Source: Candidatus Undinarchaeales archaeon (lineage in GTDB: Archaea > SpSt-1190 > JASMDC01). From it: a stretch of 20,519 nt of DNA. The position numbers and the translations under genes are program-made. A model generated the notes under the pieces. That model was not told the DNA's origin and made no database searches. It saw only the letters and a list, made by a program, of their open reading frames with translations. Positions 297 to 11,411 of the stretch are shown piece by piece. The first letter of the stretch is position 1. Each line of letters begins with the position of its first letter. The DNA lies in the NCBI GenBank assembly GCA_030753015.1, contig JASMDC010000054.1, positions 1 to 20,519 of the forward strand, in the 5' to 3' direction.

Positions 297-354
297 GGAA
301 TAACCTAGTCATTCCGGGTAAATAAACATTGTGGCTTCTATTAAATAAGTCGGG

Positions 355-429
355 TGCCCCTGCCGGGATTTGAACCCGGGTAATTGGCTCGAAAGGCCAA
401 CATGATTGACCGGACTACACCACAGGGGC
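355..429 (-). tRNA. tRNA-Glu (anticodon UUC)
   Basis: The reverse complement folds as a full cloverleaf. The acceptor stem is GCCCCUG with CAGGGGC. The anticodon stem UUGGC/GCCAA encloses the seven-base loop CUUUCGA, so the anticodon is UUC. The T arm is CCGGG-UUCAAAU-CCCGG and the discriminator base is A at 355. No intron is seen and CCA is not encoded (the following bases read CCC). The integrase gene starting at 296 lies just beyond its 3' end, so this tRNA is a likely attachment site. Confidence 0.95.
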
Positions 430-451
430 AGCCCACGTTTGTGCTGAAGGT

Positions 452-460: not shown

Positions 461-469
461 CTAACGCCG

Positions 470-580
470 CCGGGGACCGGGAGGTTACTGAAATTTATTT
501 CAGTAACAGTGGTACGACCTGCCACCCCACCCTTTCTCTTCGACCCCCATGGACCACGGAGGGGCACCCACGTCAGATGA
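470..580. repeat. Island repeat, copy 1 (right half only)
   Basis: This is the first of the diverged intergenic repeats that separate the cassettes of the island. It carries a perfect 22-base palindrome at 485-506 (arms TTACTGAAAT and ATTTCAGTAA around TT). A conserved tggtacgacctgc stretch follows, then a C-run/G-run dyad at 544-565 (cccccatggaccacggaggggc) ending in acgtcag. The left half of the repeat (the TACCCC...GGGGTAC hairpin) is absent here. The palindrome is identical to that of the copy at 903-1100, so the two bracket the 608-907 gene as direct repeats. Confidence 0.8.
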
Positions 581-607
581 CCGTCCACCGGTACCACCGC
601 AGGGCCC

Positions 608-907
608 TCACCCGCCCCCGAGCTTTCCTTCGTCCTCCGACGCCAGCACGACCTCCCGTGCGAACACTTGCGCCCCGTAGCGCTCCAAAAGACCGATGAC
701 CGTACCGGCTCGATCGCTCGCGACCACCAGCACCGACCGTACGGGCCGCAGGTGCGACACCCTGTGGAGGAGGCCGTCACGCTCGTAGGTGTATCGGCCG
801 TTGTTGGACCTGTCCGTCCAGCCGTAGAGCTCGCGGTCGAGCCTGGTCCTGGCCCTGTCGGAGAGACCGGCGGACGCCAGATCGTAGCAGATGATCGTTG
901 CAAGCAT
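608..907 (-). CDS. Small protein, possibly Cas2/VapD-like (tentative)
   Basis: A 99-residue protein begins MLATIICYDL, a hydrophobic strand ending in a Tyr-Asp pair. It continues with an R/L-rich helix, GWTDRSNNGRYTYERDGLL, a second strand SVLVVAS and a final strand near residues 80-90 (AQVFAREVVL). A first strand ending in Asp followed by a helix and further strands resembles the ferredoxin-like fold of Cas2/VapD ribonucleases, with Asp9 where the metal-binding Asp would be. No cas1 or CRISPR array is in the window, so a CRISPR role is not supported. It is the leftmost cassette of the repeat-separated island, and its start codon lies in the conserved gcatctctac edge of the neighbouring repeat. 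The frame is convincing, but the family is a guess from pattern alone. Confidence 0.55.
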   Translation of the reverse strand: MLATIICYDLASAGLSDRARTRLDRELYGWTDRSNNGRYTYERDGLLHRVSHLRPVRSVLVVASDRAGTVIGLLERYGAQVFAREVVLASEDEGKLGGG

Positions 908-1100
908 CTCTACAGTAGTATAGTGCGGTGATAGTATGAGAAGCTCTGTATACCCCCCGGCGGGGTACCAGTAACATATAAGTCGGAAAGGGACATCGAG
1001 GATTACTGAAATTTATTTCAGTAATAATGGGACGGTCCGCCAGAGCATGACGCCCCTGCCAGCCCCCATGGACCACTCAGGGGCACCAACGTCAGTTGAT
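903..1100. repeat. Island repeat, copy 2 (nearly full length)
   Basis: Reading + strand, the parts in order are: gcatctctac; gtgcggtgatagtatga; a GC hairpin at 948-968 (gtataccccccggcggggtac); cataagtcgg-like spacer; a perfect palindrome at 1003-1024 (TTACTGAAAT-TT-ATTTCAGTAA); and a C-run/G-run dyad (gcccccatggaccactcaggggc) ending in acgtcag. The same order recurs at 3349, 4299, 5014 and 5731. It separates the minus-strand 608-907 gene from the plus-strand 1194-2027 gene. Confidence 0.85.
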
Positions 1101-1149
1101 CGTACGTACAACAGAACGCCCGCCCGCACCCCGCCCCCCAACAGCAAAC

Positions 1150-1158
1150 CATAAATAC
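1150..1158 (+). promoter_or_regulatory. Possible TATA box for the 1194 gene
   Basis: The AT-rich ccataaatac lies in a GC-rich stretch 36-43 bases before the ATG at 1194. The following leader is short and has no obvious ribosome binding site. Confidence 0.45.
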
Positions 1159-1193
1159 CGCCTTCTGCGCCGCCGGTCCACAGGACGGCCCAC

Positions 1194-2027
1194 ATGATCG
1201 ACGGAGAAGAGCTCGAAGGGTACTCGGCAGGCATCGTGCCCCCGTACATCGAGCAGGCCCACGACGAGATGGCCTTCAGCTGCAAGCTGGAGTACACCGA
1301 CCTCCTCAGCCCGCAGAGGTACGAGTATCATACCAAGGCCCAGAAGCAGCTCGTGGAAAAATGCCACGAGTACGTCGCCCAACGCCTCGGCGGCACGAAC
1401 GGCGACGGGTCCGGAAAGGCCCTTCTGATGGTCACCCACCCCTTCTACGAGGACGCCATGCGCGAGGCGGGCGAGCGTGACGAGGCCGAGGGCACCTACC
1501 AAGAACGCCTTGCGGCCTACGAGGATAACCTCCAAAAGCTCCTTTCAGAAATAGACCGGGACCGGTTCGACGTGGTGCTGCTGGAGGTACCCGAGCACTT
1601 CGCGTACCCGGGCTCGCGCTCCCGCCAGCTGGTCGACGAGCATCTGGTGGACGACGTGGTGTTCACACACTACTCCGAGGGCTCGCTGCTAAAAGACGAG
1701 GTAGAGCGTGTTGTCTCCGGATACGACGCCTACCTGGTGGCCGGCGCTTACGGGGAATACTGCGCCCAAGCGTCGCTCGACACCGTGCCCCCCGACGGCA
1801 CTGACCGCAGGTACGCCGTCACCGACGCGCTCCTCTCCTACGAGCATCTGCACAACGACGAGGATCCCCTGAGGTCCATGGCCCTCTCCTACGACGACAC
1901 CGAAGGCTTCACCTGCGTGGACGAGGTCTTATCCGATAAGCTCGACCTGGACACCGGGAAGGTCACCGGCCGCGAGCGGGGGTTCGCACGAGCGCTGAAG
2001 AAGGCGCAGGAGTGGGCAGAGGACTGA
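1194..2027 (+). CDS. Hypothetical protein, 277 aa, unrecognised
   Basis: The frame is intact from ATG to TGA, and codon use is GC-rich with strong G/C third positions, like the chromosomal genes and unlike the AT-richer toxin-antitoxin cassettes around it. The protein is acidic (many Asp/Glu) and soluble, with no signal peptide or membrane segment. Two strand-like stretches (ALLMVTHPFYEDAM near residue 75 and RFDVVLLEVPEHFAYP near residue 120) and a later YDAYLVAGAYGEYC suggest an alpha/beta fold. I cannot name a family. It is the only plus-strand gene in the island and lies between two island repeats (903-1100 and 2031-2128), so it may be a cargo gene or a resident gene around which repeats accumulated. 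Confidence 0.85.
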   Translation: MIDGEELEGYSAGIVPPYIEQAHDEMAFSCKLEYTDLLSPQRYEYHTKAQKQLVEKCHEYVAQRLGGTNGDGSGKALLMVTHPFYEDAMREAGERDEAEGTYQERLAAYEDNLQKLLSEIDRDRFDVVLLEVPEHFAYPGSRSRQLVDEHLVDDVVFTHYSEGSLLKDEVERVVSGYDAYLVAGAYGEYCAQASLDTVPPDGTDRRYAVTDALLSYEHLHNDEDPLRSMALSYDDTEGFTCVDEVLSDKLDLDTGKVTGRERGFARALKKAQEWAED

Positions 2028-2030
2028 CGG

Positions 2031-2128
2031 GGATCACTGAATTTTAGTTCAGTAACAATGGTACGATCAGCAGATTCTGGTGTCCCAACAGCCTCCATGG
2101 ACGCGAAAGGGGCACCCACGACCGTCCC
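2031..2128. repeat. Island repeat, copy 3 (right half only)
   Basis: It starts four bases after the stop of the 1194-2027 gene. The palindrome is partly decayed (ACTGAA...TTCAGT arms around ttttag). It is followed by caatggtacgatcagcag, ctggtgtcccaacagcc, tccatggacgcgaaaggggcaccc. The stretch from about 2064 nearly matches 3511-3562 at the other side of the HEPN-MNT pair, so this cassette is bracketed by direct repeats of one subtype. Confidence 0.8.
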
Positions 2129-2147
2129 TTTTCCCGTGATGTCGTGA

Positions 2148-2729
2148 TCATGATAACATCTTTCGGGCCTCTTCATTGAACCGCTTCGCCCGCTCAAGAG
2201 AGGTCCGGGCCTTGTTCCGCATCGCCGTTATCCCCAGCTCATATGTGAACCTGCCCCGTTTCCGTTTCTCATGATAATAATCATCGATGAGCTCTTTGGC
2301 CTTCTCCCTTCCGAGCAGGTCCGCCGAATCGTCCTTCGCGTCCTCGAGATCCTGAACGAGCGTCCTCTCCAGTCTGCCCGTACAGTAGAAATACTGGACA
2401 AGGGTGTCGAACACGACCGCATGGACCGACATCTGCGTCCTTACCCTGATACCATCACTTTCAAGCAAGGCCCTGGCCATGTAGAACATGGAATAGTAGC
2501 TTGAATTGATCACCCACAGGAAACCGTTGAAGCCCGGACGACCGGTCCGTTCCCTCAGCTCCTCGCTCGTTGACACGTCATACAATAATCCTGCTGAGTC
2601 AAGGGAATCCCGTGCGTTCTTCATAAAGAACGGCACGTATCGTGCCGCTTCCCCTTTGACGATGATCCCTTCCTTCAGGAGCCTCGGCACCCTTTTCTGG
2701 ATCTCCTTGATCCGCTTTTCATCGAGCAT
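2148..2729 (-). CDS. HEPN-domain toxin of a HEPN-MNT pair
   Basis: A 193-residue, mostly helical protein. Residues 97-103 read RTQMSVH, an R-x5-H match to the RX4-6H motif of HEPN ribonucleases, after the helix VINSSYYSMFYMARALL (about 73-89) that is typical of the HEPN core. In characterised HEPN-MNT systems the HEPN protein is the RNase toxin and the MNT protein neutralises it, by nucleotidylation where this has been shown; applying that here is inference. The start at 2729 lies inside the upstream MNT gene (11-base overlap), implying one transcript and coupled translation. The C-terminal third is very basic (HEKRKRGRF and onwards). Island repeats lie on both sides of the pair. Confidence 0.85.
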   Translation of the reverse strand: MLDEKRIKEIQKRVPRLLKEGIIVKGEAARYVPFFMKNARDSLDSAGLLYDVSTSEELRERTGRPGFNGFLWVINSSYYSMFYMARALLESDGIRVRTQMSVHAVVFDTLVQYFYCTGRLERTLVQDLEDAKDDSADLLGREKAKELIDDYYHEKRKRGRFTYELGITAMRNKARTSLERAKRFNEEARKMLS

Positions 2730-3315
2730 GTGACAACACCCGATAATAGTTCTCTGCTCCGAACACGATTACGTGATTGGTGAGGCTTTCGTTCATGACG
2801 TTGAGCTCATCCCTGTTCTTCAGCATCTCGATCATGCTCGTGACGGGGAGAACGGTGATATCGAAAGGAACACTGAAGGCATCGGCGATGTTGTACATCG
2901 TCTTCTCGAGAGGTCCGACGGAGCCCTCGTCCTCGATGATGACCAGGACGTCGACGTCCCGCGGTCTCTTCGCGTTCCCAACGACCGATCCGAAGAAGAG
3001 GAGAATGAAGAAATCCGTTGACAGCCTCTCAAGGATGTCATTGACGAACAGACCGACCGTCCTGTTGCTCTCAAGGAAATCCCTCTTCCGGAGACCTTCT
3101 GCATAGCAGAGCGCAAAATGGTTCATCCTGTGATCGAGCGAGAGATAGTTCTGCTTGTCCTTGACCAGAAATCCCTGGTCAAGGAGCCCTTGTATCGAAC
3201 GGTGGATCAGAGGATACGGTTTCTCCAGTTCTTCAGAGACCTGCTTGATGCTCAAGCGCTCGCCGATCTGGGATGCAAAGAGCTTCAATATCTTCAGCTG
3301 GGTCTTTGTCAACAT
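2719..3315 (-). CDS. MNT nucleotidyltransferase antitoxin with N-terminal winged helix
   Basis: A 198-residue protein. Residues 1-60 look like a winged helix-turn-helix (TQLKILKLFASQIG, then LSIKQVSEELEKPYPLIHRSIQGLLDQGFL). Residues 105-127 hold the minimal nucleotidyltransferase signature: FFGSVVG with Gly109-Ser110, then RDVDVLVII with Asp120 and Asp122. It is the first gene of the pair with the downstream HEPN gene and probably also represses the promoter through the winged helix. The start ATG at 3315 has GGTGATATC just before it and a TATA box at 3349-3362. The whole unit is AT-richer than the chromosomal genes, suggesting acquisition. Confidence 0.85.
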   Translation of the reverse strand: MLTKTQLKILKLFASQIGERLSIKQVSEELEKPYPLIHRSIQGLLDQGFLVKDKQNYLSLDHRMNHFALCYAEGLRKRDFLESNRTVGLFVNDILERLSTDFFILLFFGSVVGNAKRPRDVDVLVIIEDEGSVGPLEKTMYNIADAFSVPFDITVLPVTSMIEMLKNRDELNVMNESLTNHVIVFGAENYYRVLSHAR

Positions 3316-3348
3316 GATATCACCTTTTAGATATACCTCTATACCTTT

Positions 3349-3362
3349 TTAGTTATATATAT
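3349..3362 (-). promoter_or_regulatory. Promoter of the HEPN-MNT pair
   Basis: On the minus strand CGGAGGATATATATAACT forms a BRE-like purine run plus TATA box about 35-45 bases before the start at 3315. The same cggaggatat... box stands at the edge of the island repeat before the RelE pair, and a relict lies at 6014-6035. Confidence 0.6.
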
Positions 3363-3570
3363 CCTCCGACAGCCGTCCGAGAGCATCCTGTTCCCCGTCC
3401 TCGCGCGCATCTCTACAGCATCATGGTGCGGTGATAGTATGAACAGTTCTGTACACCCCCGGGCGGGGTACTTCTGTGATCACGAACGATAAATCAGTAA
3501 CAATGGGGAAGATCAGCTGATCCTGGTGTCCCAACAGCCCCCATGGACGCGAAAGGGGCACCCGCGATCT
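3349..3570. repeat. Island repeat, copy 4 (full length)
   Basis: The copy begins with the promoter edge (agttatatatatcctccgacagccgtccga), followed by ccccgtcctcgcgcgcatctctac, catggtgcggtgatagtatga, the hairpin gtacacccccgggcggggtac, a shortened palindrome region (aaatcagtaacaatgg) and gatcagctgatcctggtgtcccaacagcc with the cccccatggacgcgaaaggggc dyad. With the next two entries it fills the roughly 370-base gene-free stretch between the MNT gene and the vapC remnant. Confidence 0.85.
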
Positions 3571-3625
3571 GCTGTCTGATATGTTATACAACTGTATAAT
3601 CTATTCTACACTTGTGCAAATAATT
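3571..3625. other. Probable deleted-cassette scar with operator-like palindrome
   Basis: This 55-base AT-rich spacer sits between two island repeats exactly where a gene cassette would be expected. It contains the perfect 16-base palindrome TTATACA-AC-TGTATAA at 3584-3599. Its 7-2-7 shape, with AC as centre, matches the operator-like palindrome before the vapBC genes (4266-4281). I see no coding remnant, and infer that an operator survived when the gene was lost. Confidence 0.45.
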
Positions 3626-3722
3626 TACTATACCCCCGTGCGGGGTACTGATACGTGTCGGCCTGATGGGGACACGGAGGTCTACTGTACTTTAGTTCAG
3701 TAACAATGGTACGATAAGCAGG
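3626..3722. repeat. Island repeat, copy 5 (partial, fused into vapC)
   Basis: It contains the hairpin tatacccccgtgcggggtac, then gatacgtgtcgg, ggggacacggag, a palindrome variant (tactgtactttagttcagta) and caatggtacgataagcagg. It lacks the final C-run/G-run dyad. Its right end runs straight into the vapC coding sequence, so the last codons of that gene are repeat-derived. Confidence 0.8.
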
Positions 3723-3916
3723 TCCTTCTTCCTTGTCACGTCCCCATCAGAGAAGACGACCCGCCCGAGATAGGATCTGAAGAAGTCCGTTCCCCTTATC
3801 TCCTCCAGTACCGCTCGCGGGACGACAAGGGACCTGCATTCGAACAGTCTAAAGACCAGGTCAAGTCTACCGATCTTGGAAAACGAGCTCAGGAAGTCGG
3901 TATCAACGATGATCAT
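3692..3916 (-). pseudogene. Truncated VapC-like PIN-domain toxin
   Basis: The 74 residues start MIIVDTDFLSSFSKIG, with the first PIN-domain Asp at residue 5, and include the conserved Glu region VVPRAVLEEI (about residues 32-41). PIN toxins usually have about 120-140 residues and need further acidic residues in the second half, which are missing. The last codons (LLIVPLLLN) are encoded by the island repeat, whose caatggtacgataagcagg block is read through on the minus strand. The gene therefore seems cut off near residue 62 by the repeat and is probably inactive. The start overlaps the antitoxin stop by four bases (ATGA), as in an intact vapBC pair. Confidence 0.75.
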
Positions 3917-4257
3917 ATTGGTTTCCGTCCGATCTGCTCCATGACCTCCTTGGCCGTTCTCTCCATCTCCTCGGCCGATCCGCCCACCTTTCTCGCGATC
4001 CCCCTCTCGTGGAGCATCCTCTTCATCTCCTCGATGTTCACGTCGGCGATCTCCGAGGCCTTACCGAGGGATATCTCCTCCCTGTCGTAGAGCGCGCAGG
4101 CCAGGGCGGACCGGACGTCGCGCCTCGCCGCGAGAAGGGTGCGGATCGCATCGCGGATGAACTCGCTCTTGTTGTCGTAGTAGCCTGTGCTCGCGACAAC
4201 GTCCAGTTCCTTCTTCATCAGCGGGGGGAGCGTGAAGCTCACGGTCATGCTTGCCAT
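3913..4257 (-). CDS. Ribbon-helix-helix antitoxin (VapB-like) with UPF0175-like C-terminal part
   Basis: The chosen start is ATG at 4257, giving 114 residues beginning MASMTVSFTLPPLMKKEL; a longer frame upstream would read through the promoter. Residues 1-45 fit a ribbon-helix-helix DNA-binding domain: one strand, then YYDNKSEFIRDAIRTLLA. Residues 57-88 (DREEISLGKASEIADVNIEEMKRMLHERG, in part) resemble the UPF0175 segment found in several archaeal antitoxins. It lies directly upstream of the truncated PIN toxin with an ATGA overlap. Autoregulation through the palindrome at 4266-4281 is likely. The 5312-5650 protein is its close relative in layout. Confidence 0.8.
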   Translation of the reverse strand: MASMTVSFTLPPLMKKELDVVASTGYYDNKSEFIRDAIRTLLAARRDVRSALACALYDREEISLGKASEIADVNIEEMKRMLHERGIARKVGGSAEEMERTAKEVMEQIGRKPI

Positions 4258-4265
4258 CAGATCAC

Positions 4266-4298
4266 CAATACTACAGTATTGTTGTGGTACTATATTAA
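4266..4298 (-). promoter_or_regulatory. Operator palindrome and TATA box of vapBC
   Basis: A perfect palindrome CAATACT-AC-AGTATTG lies at 4266-4281, nine bases before the antitoxin start, and a minus-strand TATA box (rc of tatatta) at 4292-4298. Ribbon-helix-helix antitoxins commonly bind such palindromes to repress their own operon. Confidence 0.65.
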
Positions 4299-4513
4299 CC
4301 TGTCGGCCACCGTCCGATGACGTCCGTGCCCCCGTCCTTGCGCGCATCTCCAATCATACCCTGGTGCAGCGATAGTATGAATTGCTCTGTACACTCCCCG
4401 GCGGGGTAACATGAACGTATAAGTCGGACACAGCAGATCACGGGTTCTTAGTTCAGTAACATGTTGACGCTCCCGTAAGCCCCCATGGACGCGGGGGGGG
4501 CGACAACGTCAAC
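4299..4513. repeat. Island repeat, copy 6 (full length)
   Basis: The order is: gtcggccaccgtccgatgacgtccgtgcccccgtccttgcgcgcatctc (in part), gtgcagcgatagtatga, hairpin gtacactccccggcggggta, gaacgtataagtcggacaca, half of the palindrome (cttagttcagtaac), and the agcccccatggacgcggggggggc dyad ending in acgtcaacgg. Its last bases overlap the stop codon of the RelE-like toxin (TGA = complement of 4509-4511). Confidence 0.85.
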
Positions 4514-4793
4514 GGTCCATCCCCTCATATGCATCGTCCCGGTGCGAGATGCGGGCGATCCAGAGCGTGTCCTTTTCAGCCTGGAAGATGACGCGATGGT
4601 CACCGGAACGTAGTCTGAAGATGCGTTCTTTCTTTGCCGTGCCTTGAAGTTTCTTGATATCGAGCCGGCATGATGGGGATAGGAAGGTGCGGGCGAGCTC
4701 GCGGATATCCTCGATGATCTTGTCCCGGATCGACCCCCGGACCCGGTCGAGCTCCTTGAGGGCCTTGGGATGGATACGGACGCGCAGGCTCAT
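4509..4793 (-). CDS. RelE/ParE-family toxin
   Basis: A 94-residue basic protein of the expected RelE/ParE size. It begins RVRIHPKALKELDRV, then has the helical DKIIEDIRELA, the strand IKKLQG, and the C-terminal core IFRLRSGDHRVIFQ followed by ARISHRDDAY. The R-x-G-x-H-R-V-I and I-x-H-R-D stretches are the typical core of this fold, which in the family cleaves mRNA on the ribosome or poisons gyrase; which applies here cannot be told. It starts at 4793 with an ATGA overlap with the upstream antitoxin. The stop lies in the neighbouring island repeat. Confidence 0.88.
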   Translation of the reverse strand: MSLRVRIHPKALKELDRVRGSIRDKIIEDIRELARTFLSPSCRLDIKKLQGTAKKERIFRLRSGDHRVIFQAEKDTLWIARISHRDDAYEGMDR

Positions 4794-4978
4794 ATCGCCT
4801 CATCGAGGTCCACGAACTCCTTCTTGGCATCAAGGCGACGTCGGACCTCCTCGATATACGTCTCCCGGTCCACGATGTCGAGGATGCGTGCAAGGATCTC
4901 GTCGTAGGTATCACCCTTCGAGCCCAGGCTCTTGAGTCGGTCACGTACAGCCTCGGAGACGGCGATCGTCGTCGACAT
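4790..4978 (-). CDS. Antitoxin partner of the RelE-like toxin
   Basis: The chosen start is ATG at 4978, giving 62 residues beginning MSTTIAVSEAVRDRLKSLGS; the longer open frame upstream covers promoter and repeat and is unlikely to be translated. The T-T-I-x-V-S-E-x-x-R-D-R-L-K opening and the following GDTYDEILARIL are characteristic of short archaeal antitoxins encoded just before RelE-type toxins (VapB/DUF7557-like). Its C-terminal part (ETYIEEVRRRLDAKKEF) would wrap the toxin. Upstream are direct TATAAC/ATAAC elements and a TATA box, likely the regulated promoter. Confidence 0.82.
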   Translation of the reverse strand: MSTTIAVSEAVRDRLKSLGSKGDTYDEILARILDIVDRETYIEEVRRRLDAKKEFVDLDEAI

Positions 4979-4984
4979 TATAGT

Positions 4985-5015
4985 TGTTATGGTCGTTATA
5001 TCTATTATATCCTCC
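4985..5015 (-). promoter_or_regulatory. Promoter of the RelE pair
   Basis: The minus strand reads CCGGAGGATATAATAGATATAAC followed by ATAACAACTATA before the ATG at 4978. The GGAGGATATA box matches the promoter edge of the island repeat at 3349. The repeated ATAAC elements are candidate operator half-sites. Confidence 0.55.
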
Positions 5016-5294
5016 GGTCCGTCACATGGGTTTTCGCCCGTCACCTTGCGCTCATCTCTACCGTTCCATGGTGCGGCGATAGTATGAAAAGCTCTGTATA
5101 CCCTCTTGAGAAGTACTGGATACGTATAAGCGGGACGGGGACACAGAGATTTACTGTACTTTAATTCAGTAATCCCCAACGGATCCGGGACACAGAAAAG
5201 TACTGTACTTTAATTCAGTAATATCGGGATGACCTGCTGCTATGGCTTTCCTTACAACGATCCCGGACCACCGAGGGGCGCAAATGTCCGTGGA
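5014..5294. repeat. Island repeat, copy 7 (full length, with internal 49-bp duplication)
   Basis: The order is ttgcgctcatctctac, catggtgcggcgatagtatgaa, gtataccctcttgagaagtac (the hairpin has lost its G/C runs but keeps the GTA...TAC ends), acgtataagcggg, then a segment present twice. gggacacag...tactgtactttaattcagtaat occurs at about 5138-5173 and again at 5187-5222, exactly 49 bases apart. The tail gacctgctgctatggctttccttacaacg ends in a weak cccggaccaccgagggg dyad. This fills the gene-free stretch 4979-5311. Confidence 0.85.
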
Positions 5295-5311
5295 TCAGGT
5301 ATCGACTATGA

Positions 5312-5650
5312 TCAGACGATCTGCCCTTTCAATTCCTCGATGTTCCGCTCGTTCATATCCTTCTTCTTCCCGATACCGGCCTTCCCCCTTCGAATGATAC
5401 CTTCGTCGATGAGGATGTTCTTCATCTGTTCGAAGGGGATCCCCGCGATCTCGGCAGCACGGGATATCGTGATATCTACGGTCCGATATCTCTTCAGAGC
5501 GATGACGAGCCGTTCCTTGGACTTCTGGGAGAGGAAGGAACGAATGGCATCACGGAACAGCTCGGAGCGATTATCATAGTAGCCTTCATCGATAAAGGCC
5601 TGGATATCCTCGCTCATCTTCTTTGGTATCGTTATGGTCACCATGAACAT
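5312..5650 (-). CDS. Orphan ribbon-helix-helix antitoxin with UPF0175-like part
   Basis: A 112-residue protein beginning MFMVTITIPKKMSEDIQAF; ATG at 5650 or the third codon could be the start. The first 45 residues match a ribbon-helix-helix domain (strand VTITIP, then YYDNRSELFRDAIRSFL). The middle (VDITISRAAEIAGIPFEQMK) resembles UPF0175. It has the same architecture as the 3913-4257 antitoxin, but no toxin gene follows: within about 20 bases of its stop the sequence becomes the island repeat. Either the toxin was lost or the protein acts alone as a regulator. Confidence 0.82.
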   Translation of the reverse strand: MFMVTITIPKKMSEDIQAFIDEGYYDNRSELFRDAIRSFLSQKSKERLVIALKRYRTVDITISRAAEIAGIPFEQMKNILIDEGIIRRGKAGIGKKKDMNERNIEELKGQIV

Positions 5651-5700
5651 TCACTATTAATTATTAACATTAACAAATACTAATAACTTTCTATTAGTCT
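5651..5700 (-). promoter_or_regulatory. Promoter/operator region of the orphan antitoxin
   Basis: This is a very AT-rich stretch with a perfect inverted repeat ACTAATA-N6-TATTAGT (5679-5685 and 5692-5698) and overlapping TTAAT/ATTAA elements near 5655-5675. It is a plausible autoregulatory operator beside a minus-strand TATA region. Confidence 0.5.
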
Positions 5701-5730
5701 ATAGGATATCTCCCCCTGACGCGGGAAAGG

Positions 5731-5934
5731 GCCGTCCGATGGCGTCCGTGTCCCCGTCCCTGCGCTCATCTCCACGGTATCATGATGCGCTGATAGTATG
5801 AATAATACTGTATACCCTTGCGCGGGGTACATCTGGATCTACTGAACAATTGTACCGTAGGAATGGGACGACCTGCTGTGATGGCTTCCCTTACAACGTC
5901 CATGGACCACGGAGGGGCCGCTACGACAGCCGGA
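5731..5934. repeat. Island repeat, copy 8 (full length)
   Basis: The order is gccgtccgatggcgtccgtgtccccgtccctgcgctcatctcc (in part), gatgcgctgatagtatgaa, hairpin gtatacccttgcgcggggtac, a degraded palindrome (actgaacaattgtaccgta), gggacgacctgctgtgatggcttcccttacaacg and the ccatggaccacggagggg dyad. Its tail is of the same subtype as the 5014-5294 copy, so the orphan antitoxin is bracketed by matching tails. Confidence 0.85.
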
Positions 5935-6045
5935 CCAATGCTGGACGATCATCCGTATCAGGTAATATCTGAATGTCAAGATGATGTCATCGTTTTGATA
6001 TGGTCCTGTATCTTATTAGTTATATGAATCCTCCGACGGCCGTCC
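5935..6045. other. Gene-free remnant at the right edge of the island
   Basis: No coding sequence is recognisable. The right part (6014-6044, attagttatatgaatcctccgacggccgtcc in part) matches the promoter edge of the repeat at 3349-3379, including the TATA box and the cctccgac block. The rest of the repeat does not follow. This looks like the promoter of a lost minus-strand cassette and the point where the island ends and chromosomal sequence starts. Together with the repeat at 5731 and the gap leader it makes up the roughly 590-base stretch between genes. Confidence 0.5.
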
Positions 6046-7258: not shown

Positions 7259-7377
7259 CCCGCTGGAGGGCGGAGGGCATAGCCGGTGTCCGGCGGACGT
7301 TCGTGCGGCAGGGACCGGACGACGTCCTGAAGAAGGCTCGTCCTGCAGCGTCCATGGGCCACGGAAGGGCGACCATC

Positions 7378-8318: not shown

Positions 8319-8849
8319 TCAGAGCACCTCTACGAATCCGTTGAGGGTGATGCCGTTGACGATGTTGTTCGCTAGGCGCTCGTTCTCCACCGATCGAATG
8401 CTCGTGTGCACGAAGGATTGGATCCTCCGTCCCAGCCGCTCCTCGAAGGGCGCCAGGTCACCGACCTTCTTGTGAGCTGTCTCCACATAGATGTCGATGT
8501 CGCTCGTCTCGATGTCCTCCCCGCGTGCATAGGAGCCGAACACCACTAACGTCGGATTGTCGTACATGCGACGGAGGTGCTCGATCAGTCCCGATCCATG
8601 AAGTGAGCGCAGGTTGTACAACAACTTCTCCAGCAGATAGCTCGTGGACGTCCTACCGGCGATGAAGAAGGTGGTGTCGCCGATGATCTCCTTTCCGAGG
8701 AACCCCTCATCCACCAGCTCGCCCGTGTAGCGGATGACGGACGGAAGCGCGAGCCCAAGCTCCCGCTCCAACTGACGGACGCGGTACCTTCCGGTGGGAT
8801 TCTGGAAGAAGTGCTCGAGAAGGCGATGCTTGACGTTCCGCTGCCGCAT
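8319..8849 (-). CDS. Winged-helix MNT nucleotidyltransferase
   Basis: A 176-residue protein. Residues 1-65 look like a winged helix (RLLEHFFQNPTGRYRVRQLERELGLALPSV in parts, then ELVDEGFL). Residues 101-122 carry the nucleotidyltransferase signature: FGSYARG (Gly105-Ser106), then SDIDIYVE (Asp117, Asp119). It lacks a HEPN partner next to it, though HEPN genes lie further right at 9094 and 10209. Its promoter carries a conspicuous operator (8850-8889), so autoregulation is likely. It matches the MNT antitoxin class; a role without a HEPN toxin is unclear. Confidence 0.85.
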   Translation of the reverse strand: MRQRNVKHRLLEHFFQNPTGRYRVRQLERELGLALPSVIRYTGELVDEGFLGKEIIGDTTFFIAGRTSTSYLLEKLLYNLRSLHGSGLIEHLRRMYDNPTLVVFGSYARGEDIETSDIDIYVETAHKKVGDLAPFEERLGRRIQSFVHTSIRSVENERLANNIVNGITLNGFVEVL

Positions 8850-8907
8850 ATGATAACTTATGTTATCAACTGATATTTATAGTTATCATTACCCCGCGGA
8901 GGAGTAC
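8848..8907 (-). promoter_or_regulatory. Operator/promoter with TGATAAC repeats (copy 1)
   Basis: Directly before the start at 8849 are ATGATAACT (8850-8858) and its exact inverse AGTTATCAT (8881-8889). An inner perfect palindrome TGATAAC-TTAT-GTTATCA spans 8851-8868. After it comes taccccgcggaggagtac. About 60 bases recur at 10045-10104 with the same 40-base outer spacing, so this is a conserved regulatory unit. Confidence 0.7.
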
Positions 8908-8981
8908 CTACAGCTTCCTCTTCACGCCCTTCGCCCGCGAGAGCAGCATGGATGGCTCCACGCTCATGTTGAACAGCGCGC
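8908..8981 (-). pseudogene. Detached 3' end of a CDP-alcohol phosphatidyltransferase gene
   Basis: The minus strand encodes ALFNMSVEPSMLLSRAKG then VKRKL and a TAG stop. This matches the last residues of the phosphatidyltransferase ending at 11338 (ALLNMSVELSMLLSRAKG, AKKRL). By my count the two 74-base stretches align without gaps with 11 differences. There is no matching sequence further right. The fragment marks the left boundary of the segment 8982-11337. Confidence 0.85.
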
Positions 8982-8998
8982 CGTGGTACCGAAGGACT

Positions 8999-9069
8999 TG
9001 TTGTCAAGACAACAGTTAATGTAATATTTCAGGTAATTGTTGAATAATACAACAACGAAATCTTTATTA
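8999..9069 (+). promoter_or_regulatory. Promoter/operator of the 9094 HEPN-MNT unit
   Basis: Two inverted repeats share a TTGTTG/CAACAA theme: TGTTGTC-AA-GACAACA (8999-9014) and TTGTTG-N7-CAACAA (9037-9055). A TATA box ctttatta follows at 9062-9069, 25-32 bases before ATG at 9094. This looks like a typical autoregulated toxin-antitoxin promoter. Confidence 0.6.
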
Positions 9070-9093
9070 CCCTAGAACGTTATACTATACAAC

Positions 9094-9431
9094 ATGTCCG
9101 TCGAGGAGGTGCTGGTCCGCAACCTCGCCCAGTACCGGCGATGGGGCGACAAGGCGTACGACGCGAACGACCTCAATACCGCGTCACCCTCTACTACAAG
9201 GCACTGGTCGCGATCTCGGACATCATTATCTATCGCAAGACGGGGCTCGTCCCCTCCAACCATTCCGAGCGGTTCAGGCTCATGCGCAGGGAGTACCCCT
9301 AGCTCTACGAGGTCCTCGACCGGGACTTCGCGCACTATCGGGACAGCTACCATCTCGAGATACGACGCGAGGTGGTCGAGGTGGTGAGAAAGGATGTGGA
9401 AAGGTTCGTTGGTATCGTTCACATCAGCTGA
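9094..9431 (+). pseudogene. Broken HEPN-domain gene
   Basis: The first about 29 codons (MSVEEVLVRNLAQYRRWGDK, then AYDANDLNTA) are in frame with the ATG. Near 9175-9185 the HEPN pattern jumps to another frame: VTLYYKALVAISDIIIYRKT, then GLVPSNHSERFRLMRREYP. A TAG at 9300-9302 interrupts this second frame, after which it continues LYEVLDRDFAHYRDSYHLEI to TGA at 9431. A single lost base and one nonsense change explain it. The GLxPxxH stretch replaces the classical RX4-6H motif. It precedes the 9394 nucleotidyltransferase with overlap, as an ordinary HEPN-MNT pair would, so the toxin half appears inactivated while the partner stays intact. Confidence 0.75.
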
Positions 9432-10035
9432 GCTCGAGCGGATCAGGGCCTTCGCCCGGGAGCACTCGGACAGGATCCTAGACATCCTCGTCTATGGTTC
9501 CACGGTGCGCGGGAGGAGGGCCCCTGGCGACCTGGACGTCCTCGTCGTCCTCCGGGACGTGACCTCACAGGAGTACGTCGATATCCCCTACCGTCTCAGA
9601 AAGGTACTGGAGAAGGAGCGGGGGGAAGGGCAGCTCGACGTAAAGGGCGTGAAGACCGAGGAGTTCCTCGACCCGAACTACCTGGCGCGGACCAGGGTCC
9701 TCATCGAGGCGTACTCGCTCCTGCACGACGACTTCCTCTGCAAGCGGTTCGGGCTCGCTCCTCATGCGCTCTTCACCTTCGACCTGAAGGGCCTGACGCG
9801 CTCCGAGAAGACCAGGTTCCACTATGCCATGAAGGGGCGCTCCGGTGAACCCGGTGTGCTCGATGAGCTCGGAGGCGTCCACCTGGGCCGCGGTGTGGTC
9901 CTCGTGCCGATCAACGCAGCCGGCGACTTCTGTGACCTCCTGGAGCTGTGGAACGTCGGGTACGAGGTCTTCTACGGGATGGCCGAGGAGAGGATCCTCG
10001 AGCGCAAGCGGTCGCCGGGAGCGCGCCCGGCCTAA
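9394..10035 (+). CDS. MNT-type nucleotidyltransferase
   Basis: A 213-residue protein. Residues 31-54 hold ILVYGSTVRG (Gly35-Ser36) and GDLDVLVVL (Asp46, Asp48), the nucleotidyltransferase signature. There is no N-terminal winged helix, unlike the other MNT proteins of the window. The second half (FTFDLKGLTRSEKTRFHYAM and onwards, then LGRGVVLVP) is extra and may be a substrate or partner domain. The start ATG at 9394 lies inside the end of the broken HEPN frame; later starts are possible. The downstream end is followed by a copy of the TGATAAC operator. Confidence 0.82.
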   Translation: MWKGSLVSFTSAELERIRAFAREHSDRILDILVYGSTVRGRRAPGDLDVLVVLRDVTSQEYVDIPYRLRKVLEKERGEGQLDVKGVKTEEFLDPNYLARTRVLIEAYSLLHDDFLCKRFGLAPHALFTFDLKGLTRSEKTRFHYAMKGRSGEPGVLDELGGVHLGRGVVLVPINAAGDFCDLLELWNVGYEVFYGMAEERILERKRSPGARPA

Positions 10036-10044
10036 AGCTGCTGA

Positions 10045-10104
10045 ATATGATAACTTCTGCTATCAACCGATATCCCGAGTTATCATACTCCATGGAGAAG
10101 TACT
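10045..10104 (+). repeat. Second copy of the TGATAAC operator unit
   Basis: Outer arms ATGATAACT (10047-10055) and AGTTATCAT (10078-10086) are 40 bases end to end, exactly as at 8850-8889. The flanks also match (atatgataactt...ggagaagtact against ggaggagtacc). The inner palindrome is damaged (GCTATCA instead of GTTATCA). No minus-strand nucleotidyltransferase gene follows on its left, so it may be a relict promoter or a second binding site of the same regulator. Homology rests on about 60 aligned bases. Confidence 0.65.
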
Positions 10105-10172
10105 TGGCCTACGTACTACACGACCATAACTATCCTGACACGGGATAGTACTACTGCGGGTAGGGGCAAACG

Positions 10173-10198
10173 CTTTTATATTATTGAAAACAATAATA
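10173..10198 (+). promoter_or_regulatory. TATA box overlapped by an operator-like palindrome
   Basis: cttttatatt is a TATA box about 27-36 bases before ATG at 10209. It overlaps the perfect inverted repeat TATTATTG-AAAA-CAATAATA at 10179-10198, so a bound antitoxin would block the promoter. Confidence 0.6.
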
Positions 10199-10208
10199 GT
10201 TATTACGG

Positions 10209-10727
10209 TTGATGATAATAATGAAGATGAGCTCCGTCAGGGCAATGCTCCCCCGGGAGGAAGGTCCCATCAACAGGTTCTTCGACAACTGCATGAAGCG
10301 CAAACGGCTCCTCGATGACGTGCCCGACCATCACAGAAAGCATCTGCTGAAAGCTAAGCACGACCTAGCAAGGGCCAGGGCGGAGTTCGATGACGAGTGC
10401 TGGGATTGGACGGTGGTCATGGCCTACTATGCCATCCATCATGCAGGCAACGCGCTCCTGTCACGGGAAAAAGGTCTGTTCTCCAAGGACCACTCATGTC
10501 TCATCATCGCCCTGCAGCGGTGGGACCTCATCACCGCGGACTTCATGGGAGAGATGGCACAGGTCCATCAGCGGTTCGCCGATGCGGTCGATCTGGACCT
10601 CACGTTCCAGTTGAGGAAGATAAGCCAGTACAGCGTGGACGAGTGGGAGGATATCACCCGTGAGGACGCCGGGGCCATCCTCGAGGTCGCCGCCAGGCTC
10701 GTGCGCTTCGTGGAGCGGGGGACATGA
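10209..10727 (+). CDS. HEPN-domain protein
   Basis: A 172-residue helical protein. The core helices are HLLKAKHDLARARAEF (about 45-60) and DWTVVMAYYAIHHAGNALLS (66-85), followed by GLFSKDHSCLIIAL, the GLxxxxH form seen in many minimal HEPN proteins. A strict RX4-6H motif is not present. Several in-frame ATGs occur (10209, 10212, 10221, 10227); the TATA box at 10173 favours a nearly leaderless start at 10209. Its stop overlaps the start of the next gene by ATGA, making a HEPN-MNT operon, here with the HEPN gene first, the reverse of the 2148-3315 pair. Confidence 0.83.
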   Translation: MMIIMKMSSVRAMLPREEGPINRFFDNCMKRKRLLDDVPDHHRKHLLKAKHDLARARAEFDDECWDWTVVMAYYAIHHAGNALLSREKGLFSKDHSCLIIALQRWDLITADFMGEMAQVHQRFADAVDLDLTFQLRKISQYSVDEWEDITREDAGAILEVAARLVRFVERGT

Positions 10728-11335
10728 TCGAGGGTATCGTGCCCGGGACGAGGGCCCGGCTGGCGGTGCTGCGTGCAGTGCTCGAGAACGAGGGGACCAC
10801 CATCACGGGACTCATACAGAGGACAGGCGTATCGCCCAACACCGTCATCGCCTATGTCGACCGTCTCGTCGCTGCCAGAGTACTGCGCGAGGATCGGATA
10901 GGTGGGGTGCGGAAAACGCATATCCGCCAGCTCTACGTGCGCACGGACAGTGAGTTCGCACGTTCGATCATCGCACTTGTCGAGCTCGACCGACGGCTCG
11001 CGCTCTTCGAGACCTATCGATATCTTCGCTCGATCATGGAACACCTGGTCGATGTGCTCGGTGAGAGGGCGATGTTCGTCCTTGTGTACGGCAGCCATGC
11101 CCGACTCGCCGCCACGCCGGAGAGCGACCTCGACCTGCTCGTCGTTGGAGGTCCCGGTATCGCGCGGACGCGCGGGCTTGCCGACGTGTTCGTGACGCTG
11201 GAGGCCGAGCACTCGCTGCGGACCATGTCGCCGGAGGAGTTCCGGGAGAAGAGAGGGACGCCTTTTCTCCAGACGATACTGCGCGACCATGTCGTCATCG
11301 CAGGGATGGACGCCTTCCTCAAGGAACTCGTGTAG
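10724..11335 (+). CDS. Winged-helix MNT nucleotidyltransferase
   Basis: A 203-residue protein. Residues 8-60 are a winged helix (RLAVLRAVLENEGTTITGLI, then VSPNTVIAYVDRLVAARVL). Residues 118-141 hold FVLVYGSHARLA (Gly123-Ser124) and SDLDLLVVG (Asp135, Asp137), the nucleotidyltransferase motif. In the family such proteins counter HEPN toxins and bind their own promoter, here probably the palindrome at 10179-10198. The TAG stop lies two bases from the stop of the convergent phosphatidyltransferase gene, exactly at the right edge of the inserted segment. Confidence 0.87.
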   Translation: MIEGIVPGTRARLAVLRAVLENEGTTITGLIQRTGVSPNTVIAYVDRLVAARVLREDRIGGVRKTHIRQLYVRTDSEFARSIIALVELDRRLALFETYRYLRSIMEHLVDVLGERAMFVLVYGSHARLAATPESDLDLLVVGGPGIARTRGLADVFVTLEAEHSLRTMSPEEFREKRGTPFLQTILRDHVVIAGMDAFLKELV

Positions 11336-11337
11336 CC

Positions 11338-11411
11338 TTACAGCCGCTTCTTGGCGCCCTTGGCCCGCGAGAGCAGCATGGACAGCTCCACGCTCATGTT
11401 CAGCAGCGCGC
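11338..11411. repeat. Right copy of the 74-bp boundary repeat (3' end of the phosphatidyltransferase gene)
   Basis: These bases, the last 24 codons plus stop of the gene at 11338-11991, match 8908-8981 in the same orientation without gaps. The pair forms direct repeats 2.4 kb apart and could be attachment-site-like ends of an insertion. Confidence 0.75.

Follow-up and report, generated by a model that had tools for sequence, protein, structure and literature searches.

The 20.5-kb contig JASMDC010000054.1 (20,519 nucleotides), which as a whole is the window analysed here and belongs to the 3.85-Mb assembly of a Candidatus Undinarchaeales archaeon, carries a local, partly decayed array of small toxin-antitoxin (TA) gene units. 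At least eight units of the same direction share a 5' frame, the head, and a 3' frame, the tail. These frames make up one diverged intergenic repeat of about 200 bp, which is present in eight copies or part-copies (R1 to R8, Table 1) across positions 463-5940, always in a single orientation and with a constant order of its modules. The description that suits the locus best is a TA island variant in which the units have putative regulatory and recombining flanks in common. From left to right, the contig contains a recombinase-like gene fragment, a tRNA-Glu gene, the small genes with the repeat copies up to about position 6045, the gene for glyceraldehyde-3-phosphate dehydrogenase (GAPDH) and further housekeeping genes.

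The homology of the copies was assessed by leave-one-out searches, in which a profile made without the tested copy was used to search for that copy. Heads were recovered in all copies bearing one (E-values from 4e-14 to 1e-21), as were all tails (from 4e-4 for R6, the weakest, to 3e-23), while the best non-copies scored around 1e-3 and were mostly the extra dyad module of R7. The original prediction of eight copies or part-copies of one repeat with the same orientation and module order was therefore borne out. The copies are not equally complete: the spacer with a TATA-like sequence is missing from R4 and R8, about 20 bp are missing after the dyad of R6, and most of the head is missing from R5. 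The tails of R3 and R4 (2060-2121 and 3506-3567), which flank the HEPN-MNT genes, are 90% identical over 62 nt, and the tails of R7 and R8, which flank the lone ribbon-helix-helix (RHH) gene, are 66% identical and mutually nearest, in agreement with the earlier claim that these two units are bracketed by tails of one subtype.

Read along the TA genes, which lie on the minus strand, a gene is followed by a tail, a dyad, a spacer, a hairpin, a head, a promoter edge and the next gene. Heads thus flank genes at their 5' end and tails at their 3' end. The stop codons of the Cas2-like, HEPN, RelE and RHH genes are at most about 40 bp away from the tail end, and the stop codon of vapC lies inside the repeat. 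Counted from the tRNA, the first four units are the Cas2-like gene, an emptied unit that now holds a gene on the plus strand, the HEPN-MNT pair and another emptied unit. They are followed by vapBC with a truncated toxin, the RelE pair, an antitoxin alone and an emptied MNT unit, of which only a relic is left. Thus, three of the eight units are without a recognisable gene and two have a lost or truncated toxin; the tails of R2, R4 and R8 have no gene of their own. A tail-like stretch is also found just past the GAPDH gene (7317-7370; nhmmer E-values 0.003-0.04). It may be a further relic beyond the apparent end of the array, with less certainty than the relic at 5974-6045.

Both halves of the repeat occur only at this locus, with all copies lying within 5.5 kb of the 3.85-Mb genome. 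A spread over the whole genome with no link to small gene units, which had been named as an observation that would refute the original reading, was looked for and not found. A profile search of 60 relatives, a set from which very near genomes may be absent, returned no convincing copy (one relative, G056, gave a weak head match of 24 bits), and 23 genomes of another archaeal phylum gave no match. Likewise, the exact head core was absent from 84,980 GTDB genomes (a set that may omit the record of this genome itself), and two tail patterns were absent from IMG/VR. A single IMG/VR match to the head core was dismissed as a chance match in view of its low model score and the lack of a supporting context. 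The same applies to a head motif with one mismatch on another contig of the assembly (C36), which falls within the coding region of a Cys-rich protein; this contig has a long, repetitive region coding for Cys-rich protein at C36:27500-33500.

This confinement bears on the idea that the repeat is a mobile element resembling a miniature inverted-repeat transposable element or a repetitive extragenic palindromic sequence, which inserted repeatedly among the genes of a TA island, so that the repeat moved and the genes stayed. The same repeat does indeed occur between unrelated genes, and it contains dyads and a hairpin. However, there is no copy elsewhere in the 3.85 Mb, none of the inverted pairs reported connects the two ends of a copy, and the orientation is constant relative to the genes, with the head kept 5' and the tail 3' of the units. 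We consider a mobile repeat of this kind quite unlikely.

The five heads share 36 invariant positions out of 75 alignment columns, and these are arranged in blocks (longest invariant run 10, P = 0.012; clustering P = 0.0045). Conservation in blocks is what would be expected of bound sites rather than of even decay. The general layout is GCATCTC...GATAGTATGA...CTGTAYAC...hairpin, and the GATAGTATGA block, as read by eye, precedes the likely TATA boxes of the MNT, vapB, relB and RHH genes by about 75-90 bp. This position fits a putative upstream regulatory element. The conserved blocks and the GC-rich hairpin in the head might also suggest that the repeat is the gene of a structured non-coding RNA, for example an RNA antitoxin, present once per unit. 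We regard this as very unlikely, since on neither strand do the folding energies differ from those of shuffled sequence (z between -2 and +1.7), paired positions show neither compensatory changes nor covariation, and there is no Rfam match to the repeats. Leader peptides starting from GAGATG in the head were considered as well. They are homologous in R4, R6 and R8 and broken in R7, and their changes are not mostly silent, so that they were not called coding.

At the centre of the repeat, each copy has a dyad that is best written as TTACTGAA-N6-TTCAGTAA (8+6+8 bp). Leaving out R4, which has a deletion in the dyad, the conservation within the array is 95% for the right arm, 83% for the left arm and 75% for the centre. 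Outside the array, the genome contains the dyad at two further sites, exactly at C20:20385-20406 and with a single mismatch at C32:35507-35528. Both are intergenic and lie in unrelated regions, and the one on C20 is followed by a TATA-like box some tens of bases downstream. Among 100 other archaeal genomes, the exact dyad was not found, and the form with one mismatch occurred once each in three. A reversed-pattern control had 0 sites in this genome and 3 sites among the 100 others. The recurrence of the dyad at other intergenic sites of the genome suggests that it is probably a protein-binding site, with an operator and a dif-like recombination core as the two predicted options, and that a protein acting in trans is likely to bind it. 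The two scattered intergenic sites, one of them upstream of a TATA-like box, favour a regulator as this protein; the dif-like geometry, the identical centres of R1 and R2 and the rearrangement junctions near the dyad favour a recombinase.

If the latter applied, the locus would be an archaeal cassette system, in which the dyad would serve as the core site of a Xer/dif-like or another tyrosine recombinase acting in trans and units lying between direct copies would be cut out and inserted as circles, in the manner of the dif modules of Acinetobacter plasmids. Several observations are in line with this. The geometry of the dyad and the graded variability of its arms and centre are dif-like (see PMC6449649 for dif), R1 and R2 flank the Cas2-like gene as direct repeats, and TA pairs are known cargo of dif modules (PMC6449649). 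In addition, six of eight rearrangement junctions counted by hand are no more than about 25 bp away from the dyad, where a fraction of about 0.31 would be expected for each (P about 0.01). The junctions called near the dyad are the left ends of R1 and R3, the tandem duplication in R7, the deletions in R4/R8 and in R6, and the join of R5 to vapC. On the other hand, no recombinase is tied to the dyad, the dyads outside the array are only two in number and lie in ordinary intergenic regions, and a clear turn of the GC skew at C20:20385 was not seen. Moreover, dif modules are described as bordered by dif-homologous repeats in inverted orientation (PMC6449649), whereas all sites here are direct. 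Taken together, a cassette system built on this core site is conceivable, though rather improbable. Its more specific form, a non-integron archaeal gene-cassette system in which a chromosomal tyrosine recombinase would insert and remove direct-oriented TA units at the dif-like dyad, appears unlikely to us.

The locus and the dif modules of Acinetobacter plasmids (pdif/XerCD; PMC6449649, PMC13141974) have small discrete units, TA pairs and two-arm dyads with a variable 6-bp centre in common. In contrast to the plasmid modules, the shared sequence here amounts to about 200 bp, the copies are all direct with no recombinase tied to them, the arms are TTACTGAA and TTCAGTAA and not Xer arms, and the locus is archaeal and situated beside a tRNA gene. 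Dif modules are a closer likeness than an integron, yet the orientation of the sites fails and the recombinase is missing.

The resemblance to an integron cassette array, which had been pointed out in the original prediction, holds for the layout: the TA units are small, each gene comes with a repeat, and the genes have one direction, except for the plus-strand gene at 1194-2027. The attC sites of an integron are absent in every respect examined. No cores of the type RYYYAAC...GTTRRRY occur in the eight copies on both strands or anywhere in the window, and the search for the single-strand hairpin fold of attC, based on RNA energies, gave nothing better than shuffled sequences and no covariation. 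The supposed integrase is a fragment of 98 amino acids, recognised by eye and cut by the contig end, for which no family match was obtained. It is present in a single copy in the genome and has no relatives in IMG/VR. All TA genes and the Cas2-like gene read towards this fragment as described, the gene at 1194-2027 does not. Between the 3' end of the tRNA-Glu gene and the start of the fragment there are 55 bp, and the fragment lies on the side away from the array. An integrase beside a tRNA 3' end belongs to an element on that side; therefore, the corresponding element would run leftwards, off the contig and away from the array. A search for a displaced 3' end of tRNA-Glu that could represent an attR site yielded, besides the tRNA itself, no more than three weaker matches resembling other tRNAs. 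A true integron, or a cluster of attC sites lacking an integrase (CALIN), using the tRNA-adjacent integrase would explain the array layout, the TA cargo and the small genes in one direction. However, with no attC cores or fold, genes pointing towards the integrase and the integrase on the far side of the tRNA with its element running the other way, we deem it extremely improbable. Sedentary chromosomal integrons as well as archaeal integrons and CALINs (PMC9668308) likewise have TA-rich arrays of small genes in one direction with a repeat per gene. Unlike those, the present locus has neither attC cores and fold nor a recognised IntI or attI, its genes face the putative integrase, and its units have promoters of their own.

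We return to the decayed local TA array with shared regulatory and recombining frames and with a dyad bound by a regulator, an explanation that as a whole we hold to have an even chance of being right. In this explanation, each unit begins with a head, continues with a promoter of its own and a small gene or TA pair, and closes with a tail, and the 200-bp repeat is the tail of one unit joined to the head of the next where the units abut. The head, which precedes the TA promoters by much the same distance in each case, is most likely a common upstream regulatory element. The dyad that separates head and tail would be bound by a protein dimer, for which a regulator encoded at another locus is the likeliest candidate. 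Since all units carry the frames, recombination between them at or near the dyad could duplicate, swap and delete units, and this would account for the mixed TA families, the same-subtype tails of neighbours, the lost toxins and the emptied units. The tails point in this direction: the three reciprocal-best pairs (R1-R2, R3-R4 and R7-R8) are all between neighbours, for which the chance is 4 of 105 possible pairings (0.04, by our own arithmetic), and greatest likeness of neighbouring tails is as local duplication or exchange would give. Of the two possibilities raised originally, regulatory repeats spread by recombination fit the data at least as well as a cassette system.

Several points weigh against this explanation. 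When the full copies were formally tested for mosaic structure, the result was not significant (P 0.28-0.84), and exchange between copies is instead deduced from the gene content, from the way the tails pair and from hand-called junctions. Differing TA families in identical frames need the insertion or replacement of genes, which goes beyond plain tandem duplication. Furthermore, no regulator is tied to the dyad or the head. Finally, neither a head nor a tail accompanies the two outside dyads, and a shared motif is all that would link their neighbouring genes to the array.

Table 1. Repeat copies, genes and other features of the array region (positions of the window)
Feature	Position	Strand	Description
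Putative archaeal tyrosine recombinase, N-terminal fragment, 98 aa	3..296	-	Read by eye; cut by contig end
tRNA-Glu (TTC)	352..430	-	ARAGORN; Rfam tRNA 64.5 bits; left border of the array
R1	463..584	+	Tail; dyad 485-506 (TTACTGAA ATTTAT TTCAGTAA); no head
Possible Cas2/VapD-like ferredoxin-fold protein, 99 aa	608..907	-	Start codon inside R2 head
R2	899..1103	+	Full; head 899-971, dyad 1003-1024, tail to 1103
277-aa protein, unknown family	1194..2027	+	Strand opposite to all other array genes; stop codon abuts R3
R3	2010..2125	+	Tail; dyad 2034-2055; no head
HEPN-like putative toxin	2148..2729	-	Pfam HEPN E 7e-4, below Pfam cut-off
Winged-helix + MNT nucleotidyltransferase-like HEPN partner	2719..3315	-	Pfam HTH_IclR 2e-4, Polbeta 0.014; PADLOC PDC-M05A 3e-5
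R4	3402..3570	+	Full, without TATA-bearing spacer
R5	3619..3738	+	Middle part: hairpin, spacer, dyad 3682-3703, tail start; overlaps vapC end
Truncated VapC/PIN-like toxin, 74 aa	3692..3916	-	Open reading frame; stop codon inside R5
UPF0175/RHH antitoxin (vapB)	3913..4254	-	Pfam UPF0175 1.4e-10
R6	4339..4520	+	Full; part of tail deleted right after dyad
ParE/RelE toxin	4509..4793	-	Pfam ParE_toxin 2.5e-10; PHROG RelE-like 1.5e-11
DUF7557 antitoxin-like RelE partner	4790..4978	-	Pfam DUF7557 2.7e-9
R7	5047..5300	+	Full; dyad module twice in tandem (dyads 5151-5172, 5200-5221; 49-bp period)
Lone RHH/UPF0175-like antitoxin, no toxin	5312..5644	-	Pfam RHH_8 5e-6, UPF0175 2.6e-5
R8	5761..5940	+	Full, without TATA-bearing spacer; dyad altered yet roughly symmetric (5839-5860)
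Relic of lost MNT unit	5974..6045	+	Matches MNT start codon region, promoter and upstream edge at 3307-3378; local alignment score 71

As in type II TA clusters, toxin and antitoxin genes from known families sit next to each other in the array. The VapBC unit proposed originally holds for its UPF0175 antitoxin, while the VapC is truncated and the N-terminus of its PIN domain was recognised by eye only, with no Pfam match for this open reading frame. The dyad and the junction of R5 with the truncated vapC lie between the two arms of a perfect 11-bp inverted repeat (CTGATGGGGAC; 3663-3673 and 3740-3750). The Cas2-like protein gave no match to a sequence family, Pfam included; its suspected Cas2 relationship is reflected in the top Foldseek matches, which are Cas2 proteins but weak (E 0.04-0.08; model pLDDT, the predicted local distance difference test score, 65). 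For the 277-aa protein, neither a family in Pfam, PHROGs, NCBIfam and PADLOC nor relatives among phages or in IMG/VR were detected, and its predicted structure (pLDDT 46) is too low in confidence to be used. The MNT protein had no relatives in IMG/VR. The TA genes mostly have a GC content of 51-59% (vapB 61%), compared to 63-68% in the flanking housekeeping genes, which fits an acquisition from outside; the GC content is host-like in the Cas2-like gene (66%) and in the gene of the 277-aa protein (64%).

The same protein families are found in archaea as type II TA loci that lie in clusters and as modules of HEPN and MNT genes, which are mobile, patchy and subject to tandem duplication, for instance in the DUF104/PIN clusters of A. 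fulgidus (PMC2701414). In the parts of this survey consulted, no shared intergenic frame is described for such clusters, while unrelated TA families share one frame here. A conserved regulatory sequence of archaeal virus early genes offers another parallel, since many small defence-related genes there are reported to be each preceded by their own copy (PMC11065993). The copies are described as conserved upstream promoter sequences in viruses; in comparison, the frame described here additionally has a 3' tail, is a diverged 200-bp unit and is apparently chromosomal.

A second HEPN/MNT cluster of four genes is located at 8319-11411 of the window, bracketed by a direct duplication of 73 nt (84% identity; 8909-8981 and 11339-11411). 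The duplicated sequence is the 3' end of a CDP-alcohol phosphatidyltransferase gene, as if a segment had integrated at the end of this gene. Beside its genes, the cluster carries a repeated palindrome of its own (ATGATAACTT..TATCA; 8841-8907 and 10038-10103), which is followed by a hairpin-like stretch, a layout similar to that of the first array.

The genomes searched for the repeat included nine others of the same class, none of them from the same genus or family; the relatives of the GAPDH share 45-62% identity and are too distant for a comparison of the locus. The assembly of 3.85 Mb is large compared to the 0.6-1.1 Mb of the other members of its class examined, and its HMG-CoA synthase shows 67% identity to other archaeal phyla versus 50% to its own class. 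The taxonomic placement or the binning of this genome therefore deserves a check.

The accumulation of TA genes in archaeal chromosomes is poorly understood. With unrelated TA families placed in one 5' and 3' frame and with decayed units that are still recognisable, the locus offers a place to study the capture and loss of such genes as well as their possible control by a common regulator. If the dyad were indeed a recombination core, the array would represent an archaeal counterpart of integrons or dif modules.

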